Assembly (NCBI RefSeq): GCF_039621855.1
Contig: NZ_CP155071.1
Coordinates: forward strand, 2,666,001 to 2,730,000
Source: Erwinia sp. HDF1-3R
Lineage (GTDB): Bacteria > Pseudomonadota > Gammaproteobacteria > Enterobacterales > Enterobacteriaceae
Reading direction: 5' to 3'
Length of the DNA stretch: 64,000 nt
This document shows, piece after piece, positions 7,548 to 54,561 of the stretch. The notes under the pieces are model-generated. The model was not told the origin of the DNA. It did not search any database and saw only the letters and a program-made list of their open reading frames with translations. A program made the position numbers and the translations under genes. Each line of letters starts with the position of its first letter. The stretch's first letter is position 1.

Positions 7548-7675
7548 TCGTTATTAGCCGATCGTTGGCGTTGGACGTTGCAGCCAGCGCGTTCCGGGTG
7601 GCGTAGCACGTCGCCACCCTCTGTCAACGATGACGTAACGCCAAAATAAACGTTATCACCTCTCAGAAAGCAGAA

Positions 7676-7933
7676 TTACTCCTCATACTCCTCTTCATCG
7701 TCATCCCCGTAATCGTCATTATCCTGATTGCGTTGATCCTCGTTTTCGTCGTCGTCATCCTCTTCGTCATCAAAGCGGGCCGTTATCATATCGCCCGTAT
7801 GATTTTCACGGATCTCAGCCGCTACCAGCTGTATCGCCTGCCCGCTGCTCATACCCTCTGACATCAGTTGCTGAATGCGCTCTACCGCCTGCTGCTGCTG
7901 GTCGTACGAAAGCGCTGGTAATCCCGTAATCAT
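7676..7933 (-). CDS. yoaH: UPF0181 protein YoaH with long acidic tail
   Basis: Residues 1-55 match E. coli YoaH ([34 protein letters not shown]), a UPF0181 protein of unknown function. E. coli YoaH stops at 59 residues with a short acidic end. Here the protein is 85 residues and ends in about 30 residues that are nearly all Asp, Glu, Asn or Gln. The start ATG 7931-7933 has GGAGTGG upstream. The tail coding repeats GAT/GAA and could have grown by slippage. It is divergent from pabB. Confidence 0.88.
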
Positions 7934-8044
7934 ATCCACTCCAGTAAAAATCGCGTAGCCCGTCTGCGCGTAACAAACAGATGTCAGCATTAAAAAAATA
8001 TGTCAGGCTTGTACTCTGTCCTGGTCAAGGCCTGCTAAATTATC

Positions 8045-9406
8045 ATGCCAGTTGTTTATCATTCTTTGAAGTATACGCCTGAAGCGCTTTTGAATCTGTT
8101 TAACTGTGTAGCCCAGCAGCCCTGGTCGATGCTGCTACACTCCGGCTTTGCCGATCACCATGATAATCGCTTTGATATTATGGTGTCCGATCCGCGTATT
8201 ACCCTGACGACGCGTGGCGAAGTGACCACCATTGAGAGCGATGATGCGTCAGAGCAGAGTAAAGACGATCCCTTGACGCTGCTGGACCGGGTCATGGCGC
8301 AAACCGGCCTGAGTGCGCCTTCGCATCCTGACCTGCCCTTTCAGGGCGGCGCGCTCGGACTGTTTGGCTACGATCTTGGCCGCAGATTTGAATCGCTCCC
8401 CCAGCAGGCAGAGCAGGACTTAACCACGCCCGATATGGCATCAGGCCTCTATGACTGGGCGCTGATTGCGGATCATCATCTCAAGGCACTGACGCTGGTG
8501 GTTCAGGGCGATGCTGATAAGCGCCTGGCGTGGCTTAACGCCCTGACGCCGCCCGGCATCGATCCGTTCCGGTTAACCGACCGCTGGCAGTCAAATATGA
8601 CGCGCGAAGCCTACGGTGAAAAGTTCCGCCGCGTACAGCAGTGGATCCAGGCTGGAGACTGCTATCAGGTTAATCTCGCCCAGCGTTTTAGCGCCCGCTA
8701 CACGGGTGACGAGTGGCAGGCGTTCAGGGAGCTAACCCGGGAAAATCGCGCGCCCTTCAGCGCATTTATCCGCCTGCCTGAAAGCGCGATTATCAGTCTC
8801 TCTCCTGAACGCTTTCTTAAAATCGTCGGCCGTGAGATCGAAACCCGTCCTATTAAAGGCACGCTTCCTCGCCTGAGCGATCCCGTCGCCGATCGCCTGC
8901 AGGCAGAAAAGCTGGCGGCATCGGCAAAAGACCGGGCGGAAAACCTGATGATTGTCGATTTGCTGCGTAACGACATCGGCCGCGTAGCCGTTCCGGGTAG
9001 CGTACGCGTTCCCGAGCTGTTTGTGGTTGAGCCATTCCCGGCGGTGCACCACCTGGTCAGTACGGTTACCGCGGAGCTGAAGGCGCCGCTAACGCCCTGC
9101 GACCTGCTGCGCGCCTGCTTTCCCGGCGGTTCCATCACCGGCGCGCCAAAAGTCCGTGCGATGGAGATTATTGATGAGCTGGAACCGCACCGTCGCAATG
9201 CCTGGTGCGGCACTATTGGCTATATCAGCTTCTGCGGCAGAATGGATACCAGCATAACCATCCGCACGCTGACTGCTGAGCAGGGGCAGATTCACTGTAC
9301 CGCCGGTGGCGGTATCGTCGCCGACAGCGAAGAGCAGGCGGAGTATCAGGAAACCTTTGATAAGGTCAGCCGGATCCTGCCCTGCCTGGACACCGCCAAT
9401 GTCTGA
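8045..9406 (+). CDS. pabB: Aminodeoxychorismate synthase component 1
   Basis: PabB converts chorismate plus ammonia (from PabA) to 4-amino-4-deoxychorismate, the first step to p-aminobenzoate and folate. The 453-residue chain has the N-terminal anthranilate-synthase-I-like domain and the chorismate-binding domain. The latter holds the PIKGT motif near residue 270, whose Lys forms the covalent intermediate in PabB, plus [23 protein letters not shown] and [10 protein letters not shown]. Its final eight bases overlap the nudL start, implying translational coupling, as in E. coli. Confidence 0.96.
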
Positions 9407-36683: not shown

Positions 36684-37172
36684 ATGCCAATCCCTGCTAA
36701 CATGTGGCTCAAGGACGACGGCGGTGCAGACATTAAAGGGTCTGTTGATGTTCAGGATCGTGAAGGCAGCATTGAAATTATCGGTTTATCCCACGGCTTA
36801 ACGCTGCCAGTTGATGCTGCGAGCGGTAAAATCACCGGTACCCGCCAGCATTCATCTATGATGCTTGAAAAAGAAATTGATAGTTCTTCTCCATATCTCA
36901 ATCGTGCAGCTGCTACAGGGCAGGCGCTGCAAATCGCTGAAATCCGTTTTTATAAAATCAATGATGCGGGGCAAGAGGTTTGCTATTACATCATACTTCT
37001 GGAAAACGTTAAGGTAACGAGTGTAAACAGCTCTATTCCTAACACGAAGCTATCCAGTTCACAGCTAAACCATGTAGAACACGTCAGCCTCAATTACGAA
37101 AAAATCACCTGGCACTACGTAGACGGTAACGTGAAATTTGCCGATGCGTGGAACGAGCGAAAAACTGTTTGA
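36684..37172 (+). CDS. hcp: Hcp-family type VI secretion tube protein (orphan)
   Basis: This 162-residue protein begins MPIPANMWLKDDGGADIKGS and has the Hcp core phrases KEIDSSSPYLNRA, FYKINDAGQEV and EKITWHYVDG. Hcp hexamers form the inner tube of the T6SS and can carry effectors. No other T6SS structural gene is in the window, so this is an orphan copy serving a system encoded elsewhere. AAAGGA lies seven bases before the ATG. The adjacent convergent genes encode a T6SS-type effector and its likely immunity protein. Confidence 0.9.
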   Translation: MPIPANMWLKDDGGADIKGSVDVQDREGSIEIIGLSHGLTLPVDAASGKITGTRQHSSMMLEKEIDSSSPYLNRAAATGQALQIAEIRFYKINDAGQEVCYYIILLENVKVTSVNSSIPNTKLSSSQLNHVEHVSLNYEKITWHYVDGNVKFADAWNERKTV

Positions 37173-38163: not shown

Positions 38164-38973
38164 TTATTTCTTATCTCCATAGTCACAAGTTCGAACTATA
38201 AATTTGTAATCATCTTCATATTTAACTGAATATAGAACCTTGTCATCGCTAATAAAAGAAACTTTTCCATCAGTAACATTTAAACAAGGGTTCTTATCGA
38301 ACATTTCATATTGGTAAATAAAATTGGTGATTGTGCTTTTAATTGAATTTTCAGACTTTATATAAATCAATGATGAAAAATGATATGCAAACGAGCCATA
38401 CATTACCAATGATATTATTTTCAAGAATATTGTTGTCTTAAATAGGAAGTTCTCTTCATTTATTTTGTATCCCGGGAATATTATTGATTTAAGTTTATCA
38501 TTGTATATAAAAAACCAGGACCAAATGGGTAAGCTAATTATAGCTATAAGGGATAGAGAGAAAAGTACGATTGATATTAAGGCTGGTATGAATGCAATAG
38601 AGGATAATATTAGTGCATGCGGAAAGTTTGTTGGTGATACGCTGGTGATCTGGTTTATTAATAGTCCTGCTATACATACGGCGAAATTCGTACATATAGT
38701 TAACCCTAGTAATAGGGTAGCTTTACCTAACGTCGTTTCATATAGATATTTATGAATTCTTATCGCGTCAGCTGAAACGGCATAAGTCCAATATGTCATT
38801 GTTATTAGGAGTAAGGCTCTCATGGTTTCGAGTGATAGAATATGGTTGAATATTGTGCAGATCAAAATTAAAGCAATTAGATTAACTAGCGTTTTCTGCG
38901 AGTTATTTAATCTGCCGTAAAATAATGATGTTTTATGAGAAAATGTGGTCATTTTATGTTGTTTCATTTTCAT
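38164..38973 (-). CDS. Unknown AT-rich membrane protein, 269 aa
   Basis: I do not recognise this protein. It has about five hydrophobic helices between residues 28 and 200 (for example LVNLIALILICTIFNHIL and ISIVLFSLSLIAIISLPIWSWFF), then a soluble, probably periplasmic or cytoplasmic tail with two cysteines (NPCLNVTDG, VRTCDYGD). It is the last of four leftward genes that begin with the prophage repressor, 67 bp after the HNH gene. A membrane protein in a lysogenic operon suggests superinfection exclusion or an abortive-infection partner; that is inference from position only. Codon use is strongly AT-rich. Confidence 0.6.
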   Translation of the reverse strand: MKMKQHKMTTFSHKTSLFYGRLNNSQKTLVNLIALILICTIFNHILSLETMRALLLITMTYWTYAVSADAIRIHKYLYETTLGKATLLLGLTICTNFAVCIAGLLINQITSVSPTNFPHALILSSIAFIPALISIVLFSLSLIAIISLPIWSWFFIYNDKLKSIIFPGYKINEENFLFKTTIFLKIISLVMYGSFAYHFSSLIYIKSENSIKSTITNFIYQYEMFDKNPCLNVTDGKVSFISDDKVLYSVKYEDDYKFIVRTCDYGDKK

Positions 38974-39040
38974 TCAGATGTCCATACTAAACTCAGTCAT
39001 TTAGTTCGAAAGATTATATTAAACAATGGCGATTGAATGG

Positions 39041-39985
39041 CTACAGCATCAAAATGAAGGATGCCCATCTTTCTTCTAAAGCTGCAGTAGATAAAGAATG
39101 TTTGATTTCTATCTTATTATCTTCGAATGTCATGTAGTATTTTTCTTTCACCAGTTTAGAAAAGTGCACCGTCAGACTTGTTGGATCAATAGCCATTAAA
39201 TTCAAATCAAATAGAGTATGAAGGTCAGATCTCAAGAGTATTCCATTGCTGATGTGATTATGTGTATTATTCCTATAAGCATCAATATGAGCAGCTTCGA
39301 GAATATCAACCAGCTCACATCCTGTAATAGCACAACGTGGATTTTTTGAAAGGAGAGTTTCGCGAAATTTTCTTTGACCTCGCCTCTGCTTTATGCTTCT
39401 TTCTAAAATTTTTCTTTCATCATTACAATTACGCTCAACATTGTCGTCGGCATCGTGCTTACCAATTGTGGGATCTATAACTTTATTCAGATTTAGCAAC
39501 GTATCAATCCATTCAAAATTAATTTCTTGGATTGAGCTTTGACCATTATATCTAAGAGTATTTTCTTTAAGTAGATCCATAGAAATGAAATCTATTTTTT
39601 TGAAATTTGTACCATACTCCGCTGTAAACTCAGTAGCATTGACATTCAAAATTAGAGGTTTATCAAATTTGTGATTGTTACTACATCTCCATAGGGGAAG
39701 TAATTTTTTTCGAGGAACCAGTTTTTTTGCGTCACACCCCGGAAATGGACATTTATTCCTAGATTTCACTTTTGGACTCGTTTTTAATTCCGTAATTAAT
39801 GATACTCCCAAAACTACATCTCTATCGGTAATAATCACTAAATCACCGACTTTTACATTTTTATGATTACCTACATCATTATCGTAGCGATAATTTTTAG
39901 AGTAGTCATCATCATAACCATTATTACCATGATATCTCAAATCTTCGTGTTTGATTGTCTTAAAAGACCATGCTTGTTGCGACAT
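39041..39985 (-). CDS. HNH endonuclease with PUA/EVE-like and zinc-ribbon N-terminus
   Basis: Residues 1-75 look like a PUA/EVE-type nucleic-acid-binding fold (RYHGNNGYDDDYSKNYRYDN, then VKVGDLVIITDRDVVLGVSLI). A zinc ribbon follows (CPFPGCDAKK...WRCSNNHKF). The C-terminal ~110 residues form an HNH_2 nuclease: CAITGCELVDILEAAHI, then NHISNGILLRSDLHTLFDLN. This layout resembles modification-dependent (type IV) restriction enzymes that read a modified base and cut nearby, so DNA with altered bases may be the target. Start 39985 or 39988 (two ATGs after AGGA). It lies in the repressor operon, between the WYL-like membrane gene and the 269-aa membrane gene. Confidence 0.75.
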   Translation of the reverse strand: MSQQAWSFKTIKHEDLRYHGNNGYDDDYSKNYRYDNDVGNHKNVKVGDLVIITDRDVVLGVSLITELKTSPKVKSRNKCPFPGCDAKKLVPRKKLLPLWRCSNNHKFDKPLILNVNATEFTAEYGTNFKKIDFISMDLLKENTLRYNGQSSIQEINFEWIDTLLNLNKVIDPTIGKHDADDNVERNCNDERKILERSIKQRRGQRKFRETLLSKNPRCAITGCELVDILEAAHIDAYRNNTHNHISNGILLRSDLHTLFDLNLMAIDPTSLTVHFSKLVKEKYYMTFEDNKIEIKHSLSTAALEERWASFILML

Positions 39986-40022
39986 CATATTTCCTATTAA
40001 AAGTAAATTCCGCTAATCTATT

Positions 40023-40607
40023 TCAGGCCTCAATCTCTGTTGCCCATTCATAAGGATCCATCGACTGGCCAGTACCCCGCAAAATAATGTCACCCTCAAT
40101 GCGATCAAGACGGAACGTCCTGAATTTTCGGGCAGCATGACAGTAACCTTCAAGGTACTGACCATCAAAACTTTTGACATCAACCTCACGGAAGCGACTT
40201 ACACCTTCAGCGTTAACATAGTTGAAAGCAACATCATTTAAGCCTTTTGATTTTGAAGCTTTTGCATAGTTTTTGGAGCGATAAGACTGCTGAGCTTCGT
40301 CTTGAACTTGATCATTAAAGAAACCTAGACTGTTTTTATGCCCATTTGCAGCATCAATATAGCTTTCCTTTGGTTCTATATATCTGTAATTGCAATACAG
40401 CTGTATAACGCCGCCAATTATGAGCATTATTATTATCGCAGGAAATTGGTTATCATCATTAGCTGCTGAACCGCCAGTAGCTAAGAAGTAAAAACCAGCT
40501 AATAACGACTTAAAGAATTTATTAGAATTGCTCTGCTGCTTTATACATATACTGCGTACAGACCACGCACCTAAAATCAAACCTAACAGTGCTAATATTG
40601 TTGGCAT
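40023..40607 (-). CDS. Membrane protein with C-terminal WYL-like domain
   Basis: Two N-terminal TM helices (ILALLGLILGAWSV and FPAIIIMLIIGGVIQLYC) flank a short loop. The C-terminal ~80 residues read like a WYL-type sensor strand set: VAFNYVNAEGVSRFREVDV, then YLEGYCHAARKFRTFRLDRI. WYL domains bind ligands or nucleic acid and regulate several defence systems. GAGGGTAGGG precedes the ATG, and the gene starts 12 bp after the repressor stop, so it is cotranscribed. The specific function is unknown. Confidence 0.65.
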   Translation of the reverse strand: MPTILALLGLILGAWSVRSICIKQQSNSNKFFKSLLAGFYFLATGGSAANDDNQFPAIIIMLIIGGVIQLYCNYRYIEPKESYIDAANGHKNSLGFFNDQVQDEAQQSYRSKNYAKASKSKGLNDVAFNYVNAEGVSRFREVDVKSFDGQYLEGYCHAARKFRTFRLDRIEGDIILRGTGQSMDPYEWATEIEA

Positions 40608-40619
40608 ATCCCTACCCTC

Positions 40620-41462
40620 TTAGAAATTATAATCCATTGTTAAAACAATTTTACCTGCAGCACTGACCTCTTCAGCACCGCAAGTGAAACTTGACGCTTT
40701 GTTAGATACGCTAATTTTTCGCCCAGGTAACATTGCAACATCATAAACGTCGAATTTATTATCAATACCCAGTAGCCAGCGACCATTGCTAATTTCCGTG
40801 ACCCCAGTGTCAACAATCCATGATCCGACATTGCTGAAAACATATAGCGGTTCGATCATCGCGTGTGGGATAAAACTTAAGTCAATATTCCAACTGGCGG
40901 CATCCTGAAGAACCCCCGCCGTTAAGTTTTTACGAGGAATGAAAGAGGCGGTAATGGTTTTATCGTTACTTTCAACATTAATCCCCTTTCCTGTGGCAAG
41001 CCATAACAAAGGAACACCAGTATCAAGCGCACATGTAACTACAACATCGCCAGGGAAGTAATCACGCCGTACCCAAGTGCTTACGGTGCCAGATGATATT
41101 TTGAGAAGATCACAAAGCTGTTTTTGCAGTGTAAAGCCATATGCATCCAGAATTCTGCGAAGAACTGGCTTACCGCCGTTGGACATTATTTCTTCGTATA
41201 AAGCTTTACCTTGACCAAGTGAATGCGGAGCATCAGAGTTTGCTTTTGCAAGTTCGCCACTTACTAACCATTGCAAATCGGCCCCTGTATCCAGGGCGCA
41301 CTTAATGATCGAGTTACCCGGAACACTGTCACGCTGAGTCCAACCACTGATATTATTGGCAGGTATACCTAATGCCAGAGCCAACTCTTTTTGCGTTTTG
41401 ACCCCATAAGAAGACATCAATCTTTCAAGCACTTCGGTACTTTTACCCATCTCATCAATCAT
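40620..41462 (-). CDS. cI: Prophage CI-type repressor with tandem HTH repeats
   Basis: The N-terminal ~65 residues match the CI helix-turn-helix domain of 186-like phages (VLERLMSSYGVKTQKELALA, ending CALDTGADLQWLVSGE). A second copy follows (RRILDAYGFTLQKQLCDLL, ending CALDTGVPLLWLATGKG). The C-terminal half is the oligomerisation region. The 186 repressor has one such HTH and about 192 residues; this one has about 280. The start is uncertain: ATG 41462 or 41450, neither with a strong ribosome site. It is divergent from cox and heads a four-gene leftward unit. Confidence 0.85.
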   Translation of the reverse strand: MIDEMGKSTEVLERLMSSYGVKTQKELALALGIPANNISGWTQRDSVPGNSIIKCALDTGADLQWLVSGELAKANSDAPHSLGQGKALYEEIMSNGGKPVLRRILDAYGFTLQKQLCDLLKISSGTVSTWVRRDYFPGDVVVTCALDTGVPLLWLATGKGINVESNDKTITASFIPRKNLTAGVLQDAASWNIDLSFIPHAMIEPLYVFSNVGSWIVDTGVTEISNGRWLLGIDNKFDVYDVAMLPGRKISVSNKASSFTCGAEEVSAAGKIVLTMDYNF

Positions 41463-41577
41463 AAAAAACACCACTAGGTGATAAATAATCATTTACCTAA
41501 TCGCTTTTACGATCTAAAGTGCACTCACACCACATGAAACACCATAGAACGAAACGCCCCAAAGGAGATACTGCGAT
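41463..41577. promoter_or_regulatory. Prophage cI/cox switch region with operator dyad
   Basis: This 115-bp region divides the leftward repressor operon from the rightward early operon. It contains the imperfect 25-bp palindrome 41475-41499, with outer arms TAGGT/ACCTA, overlapping a second dyad CACC-N4-GGTG (41469-41480). These are likely repressor or Cox binding sites. AAAGGAG for cox is at the right edge. Confidence 0.55.
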
Positions 41578-43616: not shown

Positions 43617-44467
43617 ACACCGTTTTGAAGTGGGCTGGCAGTAAGTCACGCATCATTGCTGAGATTACTAAACACTTGCCGGCGGGTGAGCGCCTCGTTG
43701 AGCCTTTCGCGGGTTCATGTGCTGTGATGATGAACACTGATTATCCGGCGTATCTGTTGGCGGACGTTAATCCAGACCTGATTAACCTCTATCGTCAAAT
43801 TAAAGATAACTCTCGGCAGTTCATTATTTTGGCATTCCGGGCATTTGCGGAAAATCGCACGCAGGAAAGTTATTACTCAATCCGCGAAGCATTTAATCAT
43901 CATCTTGGGTTGCCATTGCTGGAACGCGCTGCCTATTTCCTTTATCTGAACCGCAATGGCTATCGCGGCATGTGTCGCTATAACCATAAGGGCAATTTCA
44001 ATATCCCCTTTGGTAATTACCCCGAGCCTTACTTTCCACTGGAAGAAATCAAAGCCTTTGCAGAAAAAGCAAAACGGGCAACGTTCATTTGTGCTGATTT
44101 TACTGAAACGCTGAACATGCTTAAAGCTGGCGATGTGGTTTATTGCGATCCTCCATACGATGACACCTTTGCGGATTATCACAGTGGAGGCTTTGGAAAA
44201 GATAAACAGTATGAGCTGGCATCTGTCCTGAGTGATGTGGCTAACCGCCATCCGGTCATCGCTTCCAACAGCCACACCCGCCTGGTTAAAAGCCTGTATC
44301 GCCAGTTTGACCTTCATCAGATCACAGCCCCGCGCAGCATTGGTGTAGCCGCTGGTAAAGGTAAGAGCGCTGAAGAACTTATCTGTGTCAGCCGTCCCGC
44401 AGGAACGCAGATTCAACATGCTAATCCTGCTGTATACCCCGGTCCTGTGAACGGGGAGTTTGCATGA
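43613..44467 (+). CDS. dam: Phage DNA adenine methyltransferase (Dam type)
   Basis: This 284-residue class alpha N6-adenine methylase has the SAM motif I KWAGSKSRI at the N-terminus, the FVEPFAGS-like block (LVEPFAGSCAVM), and the catalytic motif IV DPPYDD near residue 180. GATC is the likely target by family. Methylation could protect phage DNA or time gene expression. It overlaps the next gene by four bases (ATGA), joining it to gene A. Confidence 0.92.
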   Translation: MNTVLKWAGSKSRIIAEITKHLPAGERLVEPFAGSCAVMMNTDYPAYLLADVNPDLINLYRQIKDNSRQFIILAFRAFAENRTQESYYSIREAFNHHLGLPLLERAAYFLYLNRNGYRGMCRYNHKGNFNIPFGNYPEPYFPLEEIKAFAEKAKRATFICADFTETLNMLKAGDVVYCDPPYDDTFADYHSGGFGKDKQYELASVLSDVANRHPVIASNSHTRLVKSLYRQFDLHQITAPRSIGVAAGKGKSAEELICVSRPAGTQIQHANPAVYPGPVNGEFA

Positions 44468-46701
44468 CTCAAGAATACGCCTGGCCGTGGAACGCACCAC
44501 GGCAGGCTATTAGTAGTCCTTATCTCACCTATGACCAAATCCAACGCCGCGATCAACTGATTGCGGCTGTTTCGCATGCGCGGGAATTACTGGAAGCGCA
44601 GCCCGCCCTTGTCCGTATCGATGTTAACCGCCGTCTGAATGAGCTGGAAAAAGAACATGGTGTTCAGCGGGCCAATGTTTACTTAACGAAAACCTTCGTA
44701 GAGCGGACATTGCCACGCCTTGAGCTGGTGAACGCGCAGTATCGTCTGGGGGAAATGAAACAGGGTACGTTTATGACGCTCACCGAGAACGCCGGCGATA
44801 ACAGCCGGGCAGTAACCGCCGCCGGTACTCTCTGGGAGTTGATGAGAAGATTCAACCGTCTTCCAGAAATGGCCCGTGCGGATGTTGATCTGCTGGCCGG
44901 TGATGTTGCCAGCTTCATTCTGGCTGAAATAGTTCAGGCACATGGCCTGGAGAGCGATGAATCAGAATACAAATACACTCACCGTATCTTCATGATGGCA
45001 GCAACCATCACCAGGGAGTTTAAGCAGACGCCTCCACTTTGGGAGAAAGTTACGTCTCGACTCTTTGACCCTGAAGAGGTTACCCCCGCAATTATGCGTA
45101 TGCAGATGGAAAAATGGTGGAAAGGCCGGCTACGCCGTATCGCTGCATCGTGGCGGGAACATCTCCAGATTGCCCTGGCTAACGTCAGCAAAAAACACAC
45201 CCCTTATGCCAGCAGCATGACCATTATCGAATGGCGTGAACAGAAACGCCGCACCCGTGAATTTCTTAAAGGAATGGAGCTGGAAGACGAGGAAGGCAAC
45301 CGCATCAGCCTGATTGAGAAATATGATGGCAGCGTTGCTAACCCCGCGATCCGCCGTTGTGAGCTGATGACCCGAATTCGTGGCTTTGAGGATATCTGTA
45401 ACGAGATGGGTTTTGTGGGGGAGTTTTATACCATCACTGCACCATCGCGGTATCACGCCACTATCAAAACCGGCTATCGCAACCGTAAATGGAATGGCGC
45501 CAGCCCGGCAGAGACCCAGCGCTATCTTTGCAATGTCTGGCAGAAAGTCCGCGCAAAACTGCATCGTGAAGATATTCGCATCTTCGGCATTCGCGTGGCT
45601 GAGCCGCATCATGACGCTACGCCTCACTGGCACATGCTGATGTTTATGCTTCCAGAAAATGTGGACCGCGTACGTCAAATCCTGCGTGATTACGCCTATC
45701 AGGAAGAGAGTGATGAACTGACTACGGATAAAGCCCGCAAGGCCCGCTTTCACGCGGAAGCCATCGATCCCGATAAAGGCAGTGCGACGGGCTATGTGGC
45801 TAAATATATTTCCAAAAACATCGACGGATACGCCCTTGATGGTGAGCTGGATGATGAGAGTGGCAAAGAGCTGAAAGAGACTGCGCCAGCCGTTTCAGCC
45901 TGGGCGGCACGGTGGCACATTCGCCAGTTTCAGTTTGTTGGCGGTGCGCCGGTCACGGTTTACCGCGAATTACGCCGTATGAAAGACAGCGAAACCGCTC
46001 ACGGCCTCAGTGTTGAATTTGCTGCCGCTCATGATGCTGCCGATGATGGTGACTGGGCCGAATACGTTAATGCTCAGGGCGGGCCATTTGTTCGTCATGA
46101 CGATCTGGCTGTGCGCACATGGTATCAGGCATCTCAAGACCGCAACGAATACGGCGAGGAAACTCTGCGTATCAAAGGCGTGTATGCAACATCCGTAGGG
46201 GAGGACACACCAATTTTAACTCGTCTCGCGCAATGGAAGATTGTAGCGAAGCGGGCCATTGATTTGGCGGTTGACCTTAAGGGTGCGAATGCGCCCTCTC
46301 GGAGTTCTGTCAATAACTGTACGGGGAGATCGGGATGTGAGGATCTGACGCAGCCGGACGTTATGCTAAATATGGACTTTGACCATCTGCCCCGGATAGA
46401 ACGGCGCCGTTTATTGAGGAGATTGGCTAGTGAACGACCGGAGAAAGCGGCAAAAACCTTCAGGCGCTCCGACAAAGTGGAAGCTGCATGCGCCAGGGTA
46501 ATCGACCAAATCAGAGAATTGACGGGTGAAACCATCAGCCGTGGGTTAGCTACGCGTCTTATCAGCGGCGTAGAAACTAAAATCGCAGGGGAATGGTGTC
46601 GAAGCGCCAGTAATGGAGAGCTGTTCCGCGCACCAAGACCGATTTCATTCACAGAACTGTTAGCCAGACTTCATGATCTGCGTGTAATGGCCGCAACATG
46701 A
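44464..46701 (+). CDS. A: Replication initiation protein A (P2 gpA family)
   Basis: Gene A encodes the HUH endonuclease that nicks the origin and starts rolling-circle replication. The 745-residue chain carries the metal motif PHWHMLMFM near residue 388 and the paired catalytic tyrosines Y444 and Y448 in YVAKYISKN, close to Y450/Y454 of P2. The predicted origin lies inside the gene (46287-46320), as in P2 and 186. The gene is intact. Confidence 0.93.
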   Translation: MTQEYAWPWNAPRQAISSPYLTYDQIQRRDQLIAAVSHARELLEAQPALVRIDVNRRLNELEKEHGVQRANVYLTKTFVERTLPRLELVNAQYRLGEMKQGTFMTLTENAGDNSRAVTAAGTLWELMRRFNRLPEMARADVDLLAGDVASFILAEIVQAHGLESDESEYKYTHRIFMMAATITREFKQTPPLWEKVTSRLFDPEEVTPAIMRMQMEKWWKGRLRRIAASWREHLQIALANVSKKHTPYASSMTIIEWREQKRRTREFLKGMELEDEEGNRISLIEKYDGSVANPAIRRCELMTRIRGFEDICNEMGFVGEFYTITAPSRYHATIKTGYRNRKWNGASPAETQRYLCNVWQKVRAKLHREDIRIFGIRVAEPHHDATPHWHMLMFMLPENVDRVRQILRDYAYQEESDELTTDKARKARFHAEAIDPDKGSATGYVAKYISKNIDGYALDGELDDESGKELKETAPAVSAWAARWHIRQFQFVGGAPVTVYRELRRMKDSETAHGLSVEFAAAHDAADDGDWAEYVNAQGGPFVRHDDLAVRTWYQASQDRNEYGEETLRIKGVYATSVGEDTPILTRLAQWKIVAKRAIDLAVDLKGANAPSRSSVNNCTGRSGCEDLTQPDVMLNMDFDHLPRIERRRLLRRLASERPEKAAKTFRRSDKVEAACARVIDQIRELTGETISRGLATRLISGVETKIAGEWCRSASNGELFRAPRPISFTELLARLHDLRVMAAT
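46287..46320 (+). other. Predicted phage replication origin (nick site) inside gene A
   Basis: The segment contains CTCTCGGAGTTCTGTCAATA, which closely resembles what I recall of the P2/186 gpA cleavage region (a CTCGGAGTCCTGTCAA core). Both the location within the 3' third of A and the sequence fit. The exact nick position is not derived here. Confidence 0.6.
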
Positions 46702-46891: not shown

Positions 46892-47077
46892 ATGCAGCTG
46901 GACGAAGTAAACGCCATGCATAAAAAAATGGCGTGCGTACGTTTTATTGCCGAGGTTTCGTTGATAGCGAACTGCAAACCAACCGATTATGAGCTGGCAC
47001 TAACCATCATTGCTGACCTGACTAATTCGCAGCCATGCAATGAAGATAGTGATGGCCTTTTTTACTCGGCTAATTAG
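46892..47077 (+). CDS. SOS-controlled 61-aa protein of unknown function
   Basis: The protein has no recognised domain: MQLDEVNAMHKKMACVRFIA, then a central helix-like TDYELALTIIADLTNS, and an acidic, polar end. Two cysteines at mid-chain. GGGAGG sits five bases before the ATG and the LexA box lies just upstream, so it should be DNA-damage induced. By position it could be the antirepressor analogue of 186 Tum, but it is far shorter and shows no similarity I can see. Confidence 0.65.
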   Translation: MQLDEVNAMHKKMACVRFIAEVSLIANCKPTDYELALTIIADLTNSQPCNEDSDGLFYSAN

Positions 47078-47094
47078 CCTAGGTGGGGATTGCA

Positions 47095-47190
47095 ATGCAA
47101 GTTGAATTCACCCTCTACCATCAACACAAACTAAGCCTAGGAACAGTTAAAGGCCTTACCGGTTTCCGCCTCCTCCGCTTTACTTTATGA
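47095..47190 (+). CDS. Possible 31-aa SOS-operon miniprotein
   Basis: The ATG has AGGTGGGG about seven bases upstream and lies 17 bp after the 61-aa gene. The product begins MQVEFTLYHQHK and ends basic (RLLRFTL). The start recalls the first strand of DinI-like proteins (M-x-V-E-x-T), but it is too short for that fold, so it may be a remnant. Confidence 0.35.
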   Translation: MQVEFTLYHQHKLSLGTVKGLTGFRLLRFTL

Positions 47191-47560
47191 CCCGCTTTTG
47201 GCCACCCGAAGTGGTGGCCTATAGCCATGCATGCGTACACTGCATGGATCTGCATGCGGGAAACTTGGATCTATACCCTCCCCCACGCCATGTACGACGC
47301 TGCTTTCAGAGGATCGTGCAGTTGCATGAAATGAGGTCACTAAAGCGGGCAGGCGTGGCGGGGATAGCATTGCGCGCTTGACTGAACGTCATACATTAGC
47401 CAGGTTAAAATTTAATCATAAAAATGGTGAGTCTTTCATAATCACAAAATTAGTTTTTTAGAATATTAAAAAAACTAGCCAAATTTTATTTTAAATATAT
47501 TATTTGTGTAAATTACAATAAATCAGCAATTTTCCAAATGGGTCTGAAGGAGCAGCAGGC
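47191..47560. other. cos-bearing region between early genes and the cargo cassette
   Basis: There is no supported gene here. The region contains a perfect stem GGCCACC-CGAAGT-GGTGGCC (47200-47219), a cluster of GCATGC-like repeats (47228-47260), the inverted pair CCCGCTTT / AAAGCGGG (47191-47198 and 47342-47349), and the cos site. The last 150 bp are very AT-rich and likely hold the promoter of the next gene. Confidence 0.5.
47352..47370. other. cos site (cohesive end, 186-like)
   Basis: GGCGTGGCGGGGATAGCAT matches, from memory, the 19-nt cohesive end of phage 186 (GGCGTGGCGGGGAAAGCAT) at 18 of 19 positions and resembles that of P2. It lies between gene A and Q, exactly where the ends of the linear P2/186 genome join in a prophage. 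Terminase small subunit M is missing, so it cannot be cut without a helper. Confidence 0.8.
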
Positions 47561-48061
47561 ATGTTTAATCCAAATAATAATCAACAAAATCATATGAATA
47601 CCTCTATAAACGCAAGTGTTAGTAGTCCTGTTGTTCCATCAGGCGTCGTTGCCTTCGAGTATGATTCAAGTATCAGTAATCTTCCTCAATGTCCTCCAGC
47701 TTGCGCGCAGCCGCTCAACAAAGATTGCTGGAGATTCACATTGAATCCGCATACACCTAACTGCTTTTGGCCTCCAGCACGTAGGAGTCCAATGAGAGTG
47801 GCAAAGAACGACTATGAAGCCTGTGCAATGTGGGCTTTATCAATGTATGAGTCTGAGCCAGAGGCAACTGAAGCCTATAGTAAGTTGAAGAAAAGTATAA
47901 AAAACATTGAAAAAGCTATAGGTGATCATTTATCACACGGTTTTGTAACAACAAATGATGGGGAATGTACTCCGCCTAATCATGCCGGACACTTTGATTT
48001 TCATCCTTATGTTAGCTCTGCTTTTCCCAATAACTTTAATATTACCAGTAAATTACCATGA
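47561..48061 (+). CDS. Unknown cargo gene 1 of the cos-Q cassette, 166 aa
   Basis: I do not recognise this protein. It is 166 residues, starting with a polar Asn/Gln/Ser-rich stretch, then a Cys/Pro-rich block (LPQCPPACAQP, NPHTPNCFWPP), a helical middle (YSKLKKSIKNIEKAI) and a C-terminal Cys/His set (GECTPPNHAGHFDFHP) that could bind metal. GAAGGAGCAG lies upstream of the ATG. Its stop overlaps the next start as ATGA, so the two are translated together. The AT-rich composition differs from the flanking phage genes, indicating separate acquisition. P2-like phages often carry anti-phage genes near cos. Confidence 0.65.
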   Translation: MFNPNNNQQNHMNTSINASVSSPVVPSGVVAFEYDSSISNLPQCPPACAQPLNKDCWRFTLNPHTPNCFWPPARRSPMRVAKNDYEACAMWALSMYESEPEATEAYSKLKKSIKNIEKAIGDHLSHGFVTTNDGECTPPNHAGHFDFHPYVSSAFPNNFNITSKLP

Positions 48062-49125
48062 TTAAATTAAATAGCAAAAGAGTCTATGCATCTGAGATTA
48101 GTGAGTTTTCTTGGTATGCCGATTTGATTGATTTCGATGGTCCACTATTATCGTTATTTCGTGGAGCTGGTTACAAAGATGCATTGTATGTTTGGTTAGA
48201 TAACTCGGAAAGAGCTAATCGTTGGTGTTTAGTTCCGGTTTCGCGAGAGATGCTTGATGACTATTTAACACAACAAACTTCTTTGAGAGAGACGATTACT
48301 TCAAACCATTACATATATATATGTAATCACTTTGCAGAAAGCGGAAGAAAGGTAATAAATAAGATACTAGTATCTGACTTCCCGGCTGACTACATGCCAG
48401 ATGAAGACTCATATCTTTATGAAGAAATTTGCACTCCTGAAGCCTTATCATTGAAAAATGAAAGAACGTCTAGTTATATGTTGGGATTAGATAATCAATT
48501 ATTTATAAATGATTTATCAATTATCCCTAAAGTCTATGACCAACTTTATTCTTTCCATTATGGACTGGCTCACTTAGATAGAAGTCACGTTCGAGAAACA
48601 ATGAAAAAATTATTTGGGAGTTGGACTGGCGGAATATCTGCTGTGAATATTTTTACAGGATTAAAAAATACAATCCCTGTCATCCACCAACCTGAAATAG
48701 AATCTCTACAATTTAGTTCACCGGGACACATCGAATTAAGCCTACTTCCCGCATTAGCCCAGAGCGTTGAGGAAGTTTCATCTAGAGTTGAAAATGAACA
48801 TATTTTCAATCGATTGGAAAAGCTTTATAAGGTGACCAAAGACTATCTCAAACTTCAAGGTTTATCAGGGTTTGATGAGGATGGCGGCATCGATCTAAGC
48901 AATATCCCTAATGAAGTTACATTAATATTATCTAAGTTAGTTAGGCTATTCATTCTTTTCTTTGGGTGGAAAGAATATCAAGAGAAGTTTGATGAAATTG
49001 GTTCGCATCCATTACAACAGTTGCGAGCAATAATGGCTTATTATAGAAGATTAAAAATACTAAGAAATTACATATTGGATGAGAAACTATATTTAGGTCA
49101 TTCGAGATTGACAGTTAATCCGTAA
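48058..49125 (+). CDS. Unknown cargo gene 2 of the cos-Q cassette, 355 aa
   Basis: The 355-residue protein has an N-terminal region (WYADLIDFDGPLLSLFRG, YVWLDNSERANRWCLVPV) that recalls the DUF6575 family, a group of unknown function; I hold that match loosely. The C-terminal third is helical, with a hydrophobic patch (EVTLILSKLVRLFILFFGW) that may be one membrane helix or a buried helix, and ends basic. No nuclease, NTPase or protease motif is visible. It is coupled to gene 1 by a 4-bp overlap and strongly AT-rich. A two-component exclusion or toxin-antitoxin system is plausible but unproven. Confidence 0.65.
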   Translation: MIKLNSKRVYASEISEFSWYADLIDFDGPLLSLFRGAGYKDALYVWLDNSERANRWCLVPVSREMLDDYLTQQTSLRETITSNHYIYICNHFAESGRKVINKILVSDFPADYMPDEDSYLYEEICTPEALSLKNERTSSYMLGLDNQLFINDLSIIPKVYDQLYSFHYGLAHLDRSHVRETMKKLFGSWTGGISAVNIFTGLKNTIPVIHQPEIESLQFSSPGHIELSLLPALAQSVEEVSSRVENEHIFNRLEKLYKVTKDYLKLQGLSGFDEDGGIDLSNIPNEVTLILSKLVRLFILFFGWKEYQEKFDEIGSHPLQQLRAIMAYYRRLKILRNYILDEKLYLGHSRLTVNP

Positions 49126-49129
49126 TAAT

Positions 49130-49153
49130 AAGGTGGCTAAATTCAGCCACCTT
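49130..49153. terminator. Hairpin between cargo gene 2 and Q
   Basis: AAGGTGGCT pairs with AGCCACCTT around a 6-base loop, between two convergent genes. T-rich but short flanks occur on both strands, so it is probably a bidirectional terminator. Confidence 0.6.
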
Positions 49154-49161
49154 ATCTCCGT

Positions 49162-50187
49162 TTACTCCAAGTTATAATCTTTAAATCTTACTATGTCTTC
49201 ATCAAGCCATATGTTAATTTCTTTCATGCGTTCTTGCAGCGGACTCAGCTCATTTCTTACAAACACCTGCGACGCTTTCACAACGTCACCAAATCCGCCA
49301 GCATTATCAGGAATAATCCCCATCATCTGTGGTGGAACACGGTGCGCCGCCAATAGATCATCTCGACTTGCCTTTTTGATATTGAAAAAATCATCTTTCG
49401 TTGCAACTTCACTTAGCGGCAGGATCTTAATCCCGTCGGGCTTGCCGTTGGGTGCGTACATGAACAGGTTGCGGAAGTTGCCCACACCTTTCGTATCGCG
49501 CATCGCCTTGCGCATTTGCTCAATATCGCTGCTGCTTTGAGCGGCGTCAGTCATATACAGGATATAACCCGCGTGCGCGCCGTTCTGGTAGTACTTGCGG
49601 CGGTAAAGCGTTGCCGCTTCATTCAGCCACGCTGAGTTAAGCGCGCTGAGATACTCAGGCAAACCATATATTTCCTGATTAATGTCCGGCTCCAGCAACT
49701 GGAAAATGCTGCCGGGTTCAAACCGGTGCGCGTCCTGCCAGTCGTTAATAAACCAGTAAACCTCATCCTCAACCCCGCGCCGGGTATATTTCGCCGGTGA
49801 GCACTCTAGCCTGAACCCGTTGCCCAGCGCATTTTTACGCAGCTCAGGGAAGGCATTTCCAAACGTCAGATAGTCCAGAATAATGCGGCTGAACTCCTGC
49901 TGGCTAAGCATCGGGTGCGGTATGTAAGTGGACAATAAAATATTGCGCTTAACGTAAATGGGCGAGCTGTGATGAACGGCGGCGCGCAGGCTCTTTGCCA
50001 GTCCGTGAAAGCTGACCGGCGGCTCGTACCAGCGCCCGTTGTTGATGCACTCGGCATAATCCAGAATATCGCGCTTATCCAGCACCGGGATCGGTTCGCC
50101 AAAGCTAAATGCCTCGGCGTGCTGCGGGGCAGGTTGTACCTGCTGAGACTGATTTTCAAATGCCCTGTGACCCCTGCGCTTACTCAT
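49162..50187 (-). CDS. Q: Portal protein (P2 gpQ family)
   Basis: GpQ forms the dodecameric portal at the capsid vertex. The 341-residue product aligns with P2 Q throughout: FGEPIPVLDKRDILDYAECI, NGRWYEPPVSFHGLAKSLRA, EPDINQEIYGLPEYLSALN, and the C-terminal VRNELSPLQERM. I start at ATG 50187 (MSKRRGHRAF), since the 15-codon extension to 50232 lies within the preceding small gene. It appears intact. With N truncated and M and L missing it has no procapsid to act on. Confidence 0.93.
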   Translation of the reverse strand: MSKRRGHRAFENQSQQVQPAPQHAEAFSFGEPIPVLDKRDILDYAECINNGRWYEPPVSFHGLAKSLRAAVHHSSPIYVKRNILLSTYIPHPMLSQQEFSRIILDYLTFGNAFPELRKNALGNGFRLECSPAKYTRRGVEDEVYWFINDWQDAHRFEPGSIFQLLEPDINQEIYGLPEYLSALNSAWLNEAATLYRRKYYQNGAHAGYILYMTDAAQSSSDIEQMRKAMRDTKGVGNFRNLFMYAPNGKPDGIKILPLSEVATKDDFFNIKKASRDDLLAAHRVPPQMMGIIPDNAGGFGDVVKASQVFVRNELSPLQERMKEINIWLDEDIVRFKDYNLE

Positions 50188-50368
50188 CTTTGCCACCTGA
50201 ATCAGAAACTTCACCACTGAAAGTGCATACAAAAACTTTCCGGAAGCTTTCCGGTGAAAGCTTCCCTTTCAGCCTGACTGAGAGCTCTTTTATTTCGCTC
50301 TCAGTCAGCTCAGGGAAAAAAGGGTTCAGCCCTGTTATTTCCGGCGCGCCGTGTCTGGTATTCATCAT
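50180..50368 (-). CDS. Small coupled gene between P and Q, 62 aa
   Basis: The start overlaps the P stop (TGATG) and the stop overlaps the Q start (ATGAGTAA), which suggests a real gene translated with both. The protein reads MMNTRHGAPEITGLNPFFPE, then a helical ESEIKELSVRLKGKL, and an acidic end. P2 has no gene here as far as I recall. Function is unknown. Confidence 0.5.
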   Translation of the reverse strand: MMNTRHGAPEITGLNPFFPELTESEIKELSVRLKGKLSPESFRKVFVCTFSGEVSDSGGKDE

Positions 50369-53177: not shown

Positions 53178-53906
53178 ATGCGCCAGAACACCCGCTTTAA
53201 ATTTAACGCCTTTCTGACCCGCCTGGCCGAGCTGAACGGCGTGGACACCGGCGATATGGACAAGAAATTTTCCGTAGAGCCGTCCGTCAGTCAGACGCTG
53301 ATGACCCGCGTGCAGGAGTCTTCTGATTTCCTGACCCGCATCAACATCACCCCAGTTGTGGATATGAAAGGGGAAAAAATCGGCATCGGCGTGACCGGTT
53401 CGATTGCCAGCACCACGGACACCGCAGGCGGTGACGAGCGTGAAACGGCTGACTTTTCAGACCTGACCGCCGACGGTTACGAATGTACCCAGACCAACTA
53501 CGACTTCCACATTCGTTACAACCAGCTTGATCTGTGGGCGCGCTATGAAGATTTTCAGGCCCGCCTGCGTGACGCGATTATCAAGCGTCAGGCGCTGGAT
53601 CGCATCATGGCTGGTTTCAACGGGATTGCCCGCGCCAAAACCTCTAACCGTGCAGCTAACCCGCTGCTGCAGGATGTCGCCGTGGGCTGGCTGCAAAAGT
53701 ACCGCGCCAACGCACCAAAGCGTGTAATGAGCAAAATCACCGGTGAAGACGGAGAGGTTATCTCCGCTAAAGTCCGCGTCGGCAAAGCCGGTGACTATGC
53801 CAACCTTGACGCACTGGTGATGGACGCAACCAACAGCATGATCGAGCCGTGGTACCAGGAAGACCCGGAGCTGGTTGTTATCTGCGGACGTCACCGCCAA
53901 CGATAA
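53178..53906 (+). pseudogene. N: Major capsid protein gene N, truncated by deletion
   Basis: Residues 1-235 align with P2 gpN ([57 protein letters not shown]). P2 N is about 357 residues. After ELVVI the frame reads CGRHRQR and stops: the sequence has switched to the out-of-frame 3' end of gene FI at about 53880-53893. So about a third of the capsid protein is gone and functional heads are not expected. Confidence 0.9.
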
Positions 53907-54039
53907 GGACACCCTCAAAGCGGGCAAGCTCTTTATTGACTATGACTACACGCCAGTGCCGCCGCTGGAAGACCTCACCCTGCGCCAGCGCATCACCGAC
54001 AGCTATCTGGTGAACTTCGCTGCCGCCGTTAACAGCTAA
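53884..54039 (+). pseudogene. FI: Tail sheath gene FI, last 51 codons only
   Basis: In the frame shifted from N, the codons read [20 protein letters not shown] followed by [20 protein letters not shown] to TAA. This is the characteristic C-terminus of P2-type contractile sheath proteins. The N-terminal ~340 residues are absent, there is no start codon, and the fragment abuts truncated N. It is followed 12 bp later by the FII start, the normal spacing. Confidence 0.88.
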
Positions 54040-54051
54040 GGAGCCTGACCC

Positions 54052-54561
54052 ATGGCACTGCCAAAGAAACTGAAGTACCTGAATCTTTTCAACGATGCGA
54101 ACAGCTACCAGGGCGTTGTGACCTCGCTCACTTTGCCAAAGCTCGCCCGCAAGCTGGACCCGTTCCGGGGCGGCGGCATGAACGGCGCGGCGCATATTGA
54201 TAACGGCCTGGAAGATGACGCCCTCGATCTGGAATGGACGATTGGCGGCATTGATGACCTGGTGCTGACGCAATGGGGAGCCGGTGACGTGCCGCTGCGC
54301 TTCGCAGGCTCTTACCAGCGGGACGACACCGCCGAGACGGTGGCTGTTGAAGTGGAGATGCGCGGCAAGCATCAGCAGTTTGATTTTGGCGAAGCCAAAC
54401 AGGGCGAGGATACCGAAACCAAAATCACCACCAAGTGCACCTATTACAAAATAACCTGGAACGGTAAAGAGCTGATCGAGATCGATACCGTGAACATGAT
54501 TGAGAAGGTAAACGGCACTGACCGGCTGGAGCAGCACCGCAAAAACATCGGCCTCGTTTAA
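54052..54561 (+). CDS. FII: Major tail tube protein (P2 gpFII family)
   Basis: This 169-residue protein forms the inner tail tube. It begins MALPKKLKYLNLFNDANSYQ and includes KLARKLDPFRGGGMNGAAHI and TYYKITWNGKELIEIDTVNM, as in P2 FII. GGAGCC precedes the ATG. It is intact but lacks its sheath partner. Confidence 0.92.
   Translation: MALPKKLKYLNLFNDANSYQGVVTSLTLPKLARKLDPFRGGGMNGAAHIDNGLEDDALDLEWTIGGIDDLVLTQWGAGDVPLRFAGSYQRDDTAETVAVEVEMRGKHQQFDFGEAKQGEDTETKITTKCTYYKITWNGKELIEIDTVNMIEKVNGTDRLEQHRKNIGLV

Follow-up and report, generated by a model that had tools for sequence, protein, structure and literature searches.

Vassallo et al. (2022; PMC9519451) reported PD-T4-10 as an abortive toxin-antitoxin (TA) system directed against T-even phages in E. 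coli. Protein B of the E. coli system was toxic and fully neutralised by protein A, the gene for A was not deletable, and deletion of B abolished resistance to T4; the passages of that report devoted to the system give a predicted function for neither protein. Rousset et al. (2022; PMC9122126) described a defence hotspot of phage P2 in the cos-proximal region between gpA and gpQ, the home of old and tin, and the relevant part of Vassallo et al. likewise places a P2 hotspot between gpA and gpQ (PMC9519451).

The DNA analyzed here, referred to as the window, is a stretch of 64,000 nucleotides from Erwinia sp. HDF1-3R in which two genes form a comparable cassette. Gene A (47561..48061, forward strand) encodes a PD-T4-10A-type antitoxin of 166 aa, and gene B (48058..49125, forward strand) a PD-T4-10B-type toxin of 355 aa; as described from the letters of the DNA, the two frames overlap by ATGA (48058-48061) with the antitoxin gene first, and the same overlap was found in the 10 relatives whose junctions were inspected. 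PADLOC model PDLC04023 (PD-T4-10_A) matches A with E 2.3e-60 over profile positions 9-148 of 148, and PDLC04024 (PD-T4-10_B) matches B with E 2.2e-147 over positions 1-351 of 353. Neither gene resembled a housekeeping phage family: a PHROG search returned no family for A, and none for B better than E 0.31. The original prediction of a coupled two-protein system, perhaps of abortive infection, is thus borne out by family models named for an abortive-infection TA system of E. coli (PMC9519451), and its statement that no known defence motif was visible is overturned by the same models. The cassette is very probably a diverged PD-T4-10 toxin-antitoxin module for abortive infection, lodged in the defence hotspot that a P2-like prophage carries near cos.

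Both genes, their order, their overlap and near full-length family matches are shared with PD-T4-10, and, as in two inspected E. coli prophages, also P2-like, the pair has the replication (endonuclease) gene on one side and the portal gene on the other. Those two were taken from the 13 of 5426 E. coli genomes found to carry the pair, at about 66% DNA identity, in a search that more diverged copies could escape. Against the window proteins, the E. coli homologue has 53% (A) and 68% (B) identity, and the window's host and prophage are Pantoea-like; of 51 plasmid records matched by 12 kb of the host's second contig, 41 were from Pantoea. In the two inspected copies an AIPR (PADLOC AbiU) gene follows PD-T4-10 in the same hotspot (7594-9345 in each of loci L003 and L004), whereas it is absent in the window. 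This is therefore an already catalogued defence system, here in a new host and in diverged form.

The left flank of the hotspot is a P2-type, gpA-like replication gene (44464..46701, forward strand; PHROG phrog_91, E 3.6e-264), and the right flank is the portal gene Q (49162..50232, reverse strand), with a 75% DNA match to annotated phage portal protein genes. Next to the cassette, a P2-type cos-like 19-mer (47352..47370, forward strand) agrees at 16/19 positions, with 3 mismatches, with the pattern that we take to be P2 cos; by chance, that pattern gave a mean of 0.05 matches in 100 shuffles, 5 of which contained one or more. Between this site and gene A is an AT-rich leader (47371..47560, forward strand; 29% GC) with sigma-70-like matches, presumed to be the promoter region; promoter-like matches in 47000-49300 numbered 12, against 8.1 (sd 2.6) in shuffles, which argues weakly for a promoter. 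An inverted repeat with 14-nt arms, 93% complementary, lies at 49128..49155 between the convergent B (forward) and portal (reverse) genes and is a plausible two-way terminator; the output of a simple terminator scan did not include it. The expected boundaries, cos on the left and a hairpin before Q on the right, were thus both located. The site is the cos-proximal gpA-gpQ region in which tin and old are described, with different cargo in the window (PMC9122126). No tRNA was detected in the window.

The side of cos on which the cassette lies varies among the loci recovered (given L numbers below). In the window, L019 and L020 the cassette has the cos-like site on its left, and in L016 (6216-6233) and L022/L035 (6350-6367 in L022) on its right, in a comparison made by exact pattern only, with no match in other loci. 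Since the cassette thus lies right of cos in some copies and left of it in others, insertion into the hotspot seems to have taken place on either side of cos.

As had been noted, the cassette is much richer in A+T than the phage genes around it. GC is 0.399 in A and 0.346 in B, against 0.528 in the replication gene, 0.509 in Q (portal) and 0.569 in P (terminase), and GC3 is 0.31 (A) and 0.28 (B) against 0.53 in the replication gene. This AT-richness is unusual yet not unique, equally AT-rich stretches of the same length making up 3.3% of the whole window. In 500 single-base shuffles of the cassette the longest open frame (three frames, stop to stop) was 131 codons, so that the 355-codon frame is not due to chance.

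The prophage itself is decayed. Its major capsid gene (53178-54558 region) covers the family profile only up to position ~231 of 345, and FII, the tail-tube gene, is the next one to match a family; in P2, further genes normally sit between the two. With the capsid gene cut short, FII next and no room for the intervening genes, the prophage is defective, with a large internal deletion, and the cassette could on that account be an inert passenger of a decaying element. The window copy, however, is intact, full length against the family models and ATGA-coupled, and the family is under purifying selection, so that the pair does not occur solely as drifting fragments. The window and L013, L019 and L020 differ with dN of 0.27-0.45 despite saturated synonymous differences, and in the less diverged pair L013/L018 dN/dS is about 0.11 (A) and about 0.075 (B). 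An inert passenger is accordingly a highly improbable reading, and we read the element as a prophage that is grounded and has kept its defence pair intact. Elsewhere in the window, a possible second cargo cluster (38164-41492, to the left of the CI repressor at 40620-41492) holds genes for three proteins, one of the HNH_2 family (39041-39988), one in which WYL is matched over a short stretch (40023-40607) and one of 269 aa that has no Pfam match; an Hcp-type (type VI secretion) gene is found at 36684-37172, some 3.4 kb to the left of the repressor gene.

Among the host genome and 35 others of its genus, B was found only in the host, and megablast of the region against E. coli gave the portal gene only, among the best 20 of 105 records. 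A tblastn search with B (E 1e-5) of 50,697 phage records found no homologue, and 72,556 plasmid records yielded two weak partial matches. Genome contigs gave no match when searched with B alone and 13 loci when searched with the B alignment; B or its alignment retrieved 12 viral loci. Full-length relatives in named genomes are those of Rouxiella aceris (L035) and Modicisalibacter muralis (L036). More distantly, in loci from cyanobacteria (Microcoleus and its relatives) an A homologue (PADLOC E 4.5e-33 in L037) precedes a DUF6575 protein of about 151 aa that lacks B's C-terminal domain. In L009 and L010 an A-like gene precedes DUF6575 joined to a DUF7226-like C-terminus, the Pfam cut-off for DUF7226 being exceeded in L010 and not reached in L009, and in L052 and L054 it precedes longer DUF6575-like frames (676 and 586 codons). 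A single profile comparison of A with five distant A-like proteins gave a probability of 97.2 and E 3.3e-11. Comparison of these sequences shows that in more distant relatives the parts of the A/B system move separately. The A-like and DUF6575-like pairs with other C-termini at L009 463-2229, L010 547-2264 and L054 16-2274 (a 581-aa protein in L054) are candidate unnamed defence systems.

B has two domains. The N-terminal DUF6575 domain (PF20215; about residues 1-125, 48058..48432, forward strand), which co-occurs with A, and the C-terminal domain with its SPG-IEL and HPLQQLR...YYRR motifs (48433..49116, forward strand) gave E 8.8e-49 and 3.2e-105, respectively, with our own profiles, both of which include the window row. 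The Pfam PF20215 model matches B residues 40-116 at 27.3 bits against a cut-off of 26.6, over profile positions 36-115 of 218 only, and the N-terminus is thus loosely DUF6575-like, as first described, at a score just above the cut-off.

Pairing of A with B, or with DUF6575, was counted in loci found without the use of A. A adjoins B directly upstream in 12/12 of the viral loci retrieved by B or by its alignment, in agreement with conserved pairing. Of 38 distinct DUF6575 loci (1 window, 12 viral, 12 genome-contig, 4 found with PDLC04024 and 9 with PF20215), 30 carry an A-like gene immediately upstream in the same orientation; loci having the C-terminal domain alone, of which one (L007) has less than 0.7 kb of upstream sequence, carry it in 0/3 cases. 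L001, L005 and L053 are the window itself; L035 (the L022 prophage) and L049, L050 and L051 (the same genes as L037, L044 and L038) were dropped as duplicates, as was L060, probably L041 by its equal profile score, inclusion of which gives 30/39. Also left out were L003 and L004, for which cassette DNA had served as query, and L025-L034 and L048, for which A had. Those without A are L011, L012, L038, L041, L045, L059, L061 and L062; among the 30, A is in pieces in L056 and L058 and only partially matched in L046 and L055. Because the 30 include 8 closely related copies from cyanobacteria, independent events are fewer than loci, and the three profiles used for counting were built partly from the same loci.

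The reverse search gave a similar picture. With the A alignment alone, 60 cyanobacterial genomes gave 5 matches, 5/5 upstream of a DUF6575 gene, and 299 genomes of the phylum gave 9, of which one is that of the window and 6 of the remaining 8 lie upstream of a DUF6575-like gene. Of the loci so found, L064-L068, L071 and L072 repeat places of the first count and L070, L074, L075 and L076 are new; in L070, L074 and L075 the gene after A encodes a B-like protein that has both domains. No DUF6575 partner was seen in L073 or L077, and the match in L077 (E 5.8e-4, with stops inside) is probably due to chance. Counting against the pairing, an earlier A alignment (A6), searched against 369 genomes of the class, matched no genome but that of the window.

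The C-terminal domain also occurs by itself, in three genomes of the host's order (L006, which is the same as L002, L007 and L008), without A or DUF6575 adjoining; L008 may be broken, since its match falls in two frames. In L006 (885-2133) the domain adjoins a 201-aa protein with a hydrophobic N-terminus and no PADLOC match, and in L008 (427-2123) a 341-aa ORF that weakly matches a phosphoribosyltransferase; these neighbours possibly form other defence pairs.

The predicted model of A has a mean pLDDT of 83.9, and structural comparison of its core (residues ~31-166) points tentatively to an ADP-ribosyltransferase (ART)-like fold, which the antitoxin thus appears to have. In an alignment of 28 rows, S94 and H144 are kept in 28/28 and R58 in 27/28, the exception being Tyr in L057. 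ARTs of the R-S-E kind need Glu. A was not assigned to the active ARTs of that class: as judged by alignment columns, Arg and Ser are kept and no acidic column reaches at least 80% in the 28 rows. The suggestion of a Cys/His metal site in A fared unevenly; C44 and C88 (26/28 each) and H144 are kept, whereas C68 (13), H123 (17), C136 (13) and H148 (18) are poorly kept, so that a four-ligand site is unsupported and a smaller one is not excluded. Among the open-licence papers listed (main texts) no description was found of an ART-like antitoxin or of its link to DUF6575, and both are put forward here from structure prediction and sequence comparison only. In the RES/MbcT, ParT and DarT TA systems the ART-fold protein is the toxin, whereas in the window the ART-like protein is the antitoxin and conserves no acidic column.

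Given that B kills, A protects and the pair aborts T-even infection in E. coli, the following scheme may be proposed. A, ART-like without a conserved acidic residue, would restrain B through the DUF6575 domain, either by binding there or by enzymatic modification; action on DUF6575 is suggested because A accompanies this domain whatever follows it and is absent from the three C-terminal-only loci. Infection would break the restraint, either because labile A is lost once host expression stops or because A is changed or its ART-like pocket senses a change. Release by shut-off of transcription is familiar from other TA systems. Freed B would then arrest the cell through its C-terminal domain, which is probably an exchangeable effector. 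Toxicity could instead reside in DUF6575, with the C-terminal domain a sensor or targeting part, since A keeps to DUF6575 and several cyanobacterial pairs of A and DUF6575 have no C-terminal domain, as judged by frame length (L037, L039, L042, L044, L057) or by the lack of a C-domain match (L040, L043, L047). These pairs are only putatively active, however, and the C-terminal domain stands alone in three genomes (L008 looking broken), as effector domains do; we consider a toxic DUF6575 possible and somewhat unlikely.

How A would restrain B invites further alternatives. A might be an active enzyme that ADP-ribosylates B, or otherwise modifies it with NAD+, to keep it off. The predicted fold is consistent with this, and the near-invariance of R58, S94 and H144 suggests that an active or ligand site has been retained and that A is no scaffold free to drift; against it, a fold alone shows no function, the Glu of R-S-E enzymes has no counterpart among the conserved columns, and even R58 is replaced in L057. 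Such an antitoxin is unlikely, then, and would follow a type-VII-like logic with new chemistry: enzymatic antitoxins of another chemistry are described for HEPN-MNT systems (PMC11586414), and should A modify B, the two kinds would have a common logic with different folds and different chemistry. A could also be a sensor more than an antitoxin, its pocket binding NAD+ or an ADP-ribose product, or A itself being a target of phage ARTs, so that the complex opens in T-even infection. T-even phages bring ARTs of their own, which in T4 are Alt, ModA and ModB. The published protection is against these phages (PMC9519451), and A has the predicted ART-like fold. Loss of A through transcription shut-off would nevertheless be simpler, and a sensing role is improbable.

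In summary, the window allele, 53-68% identical to the E. coli copy, adds material for phage-range tests, and the ART-like fold, R58/S94/H144 and the DUF6575 link turn an "unknown pair" into specific mutants and half-protein tests. A broader and quite unlikely proposal is that PD-T4-10 belongs to a large two-gene class in which an ART-fold antitoxin with a non-canonical R-S-H set would act on DUF6575, the toxin C-terminus being swapped between lineages, through NAD+-dependent modification or NAD+/ADP-ribose sensing, so that T-even phages would trip it by their own ADP-ribosylation or NAD+ metabolism. If true, this would be the reverse of the known ART TA systems and a new antitoxin chemistry.
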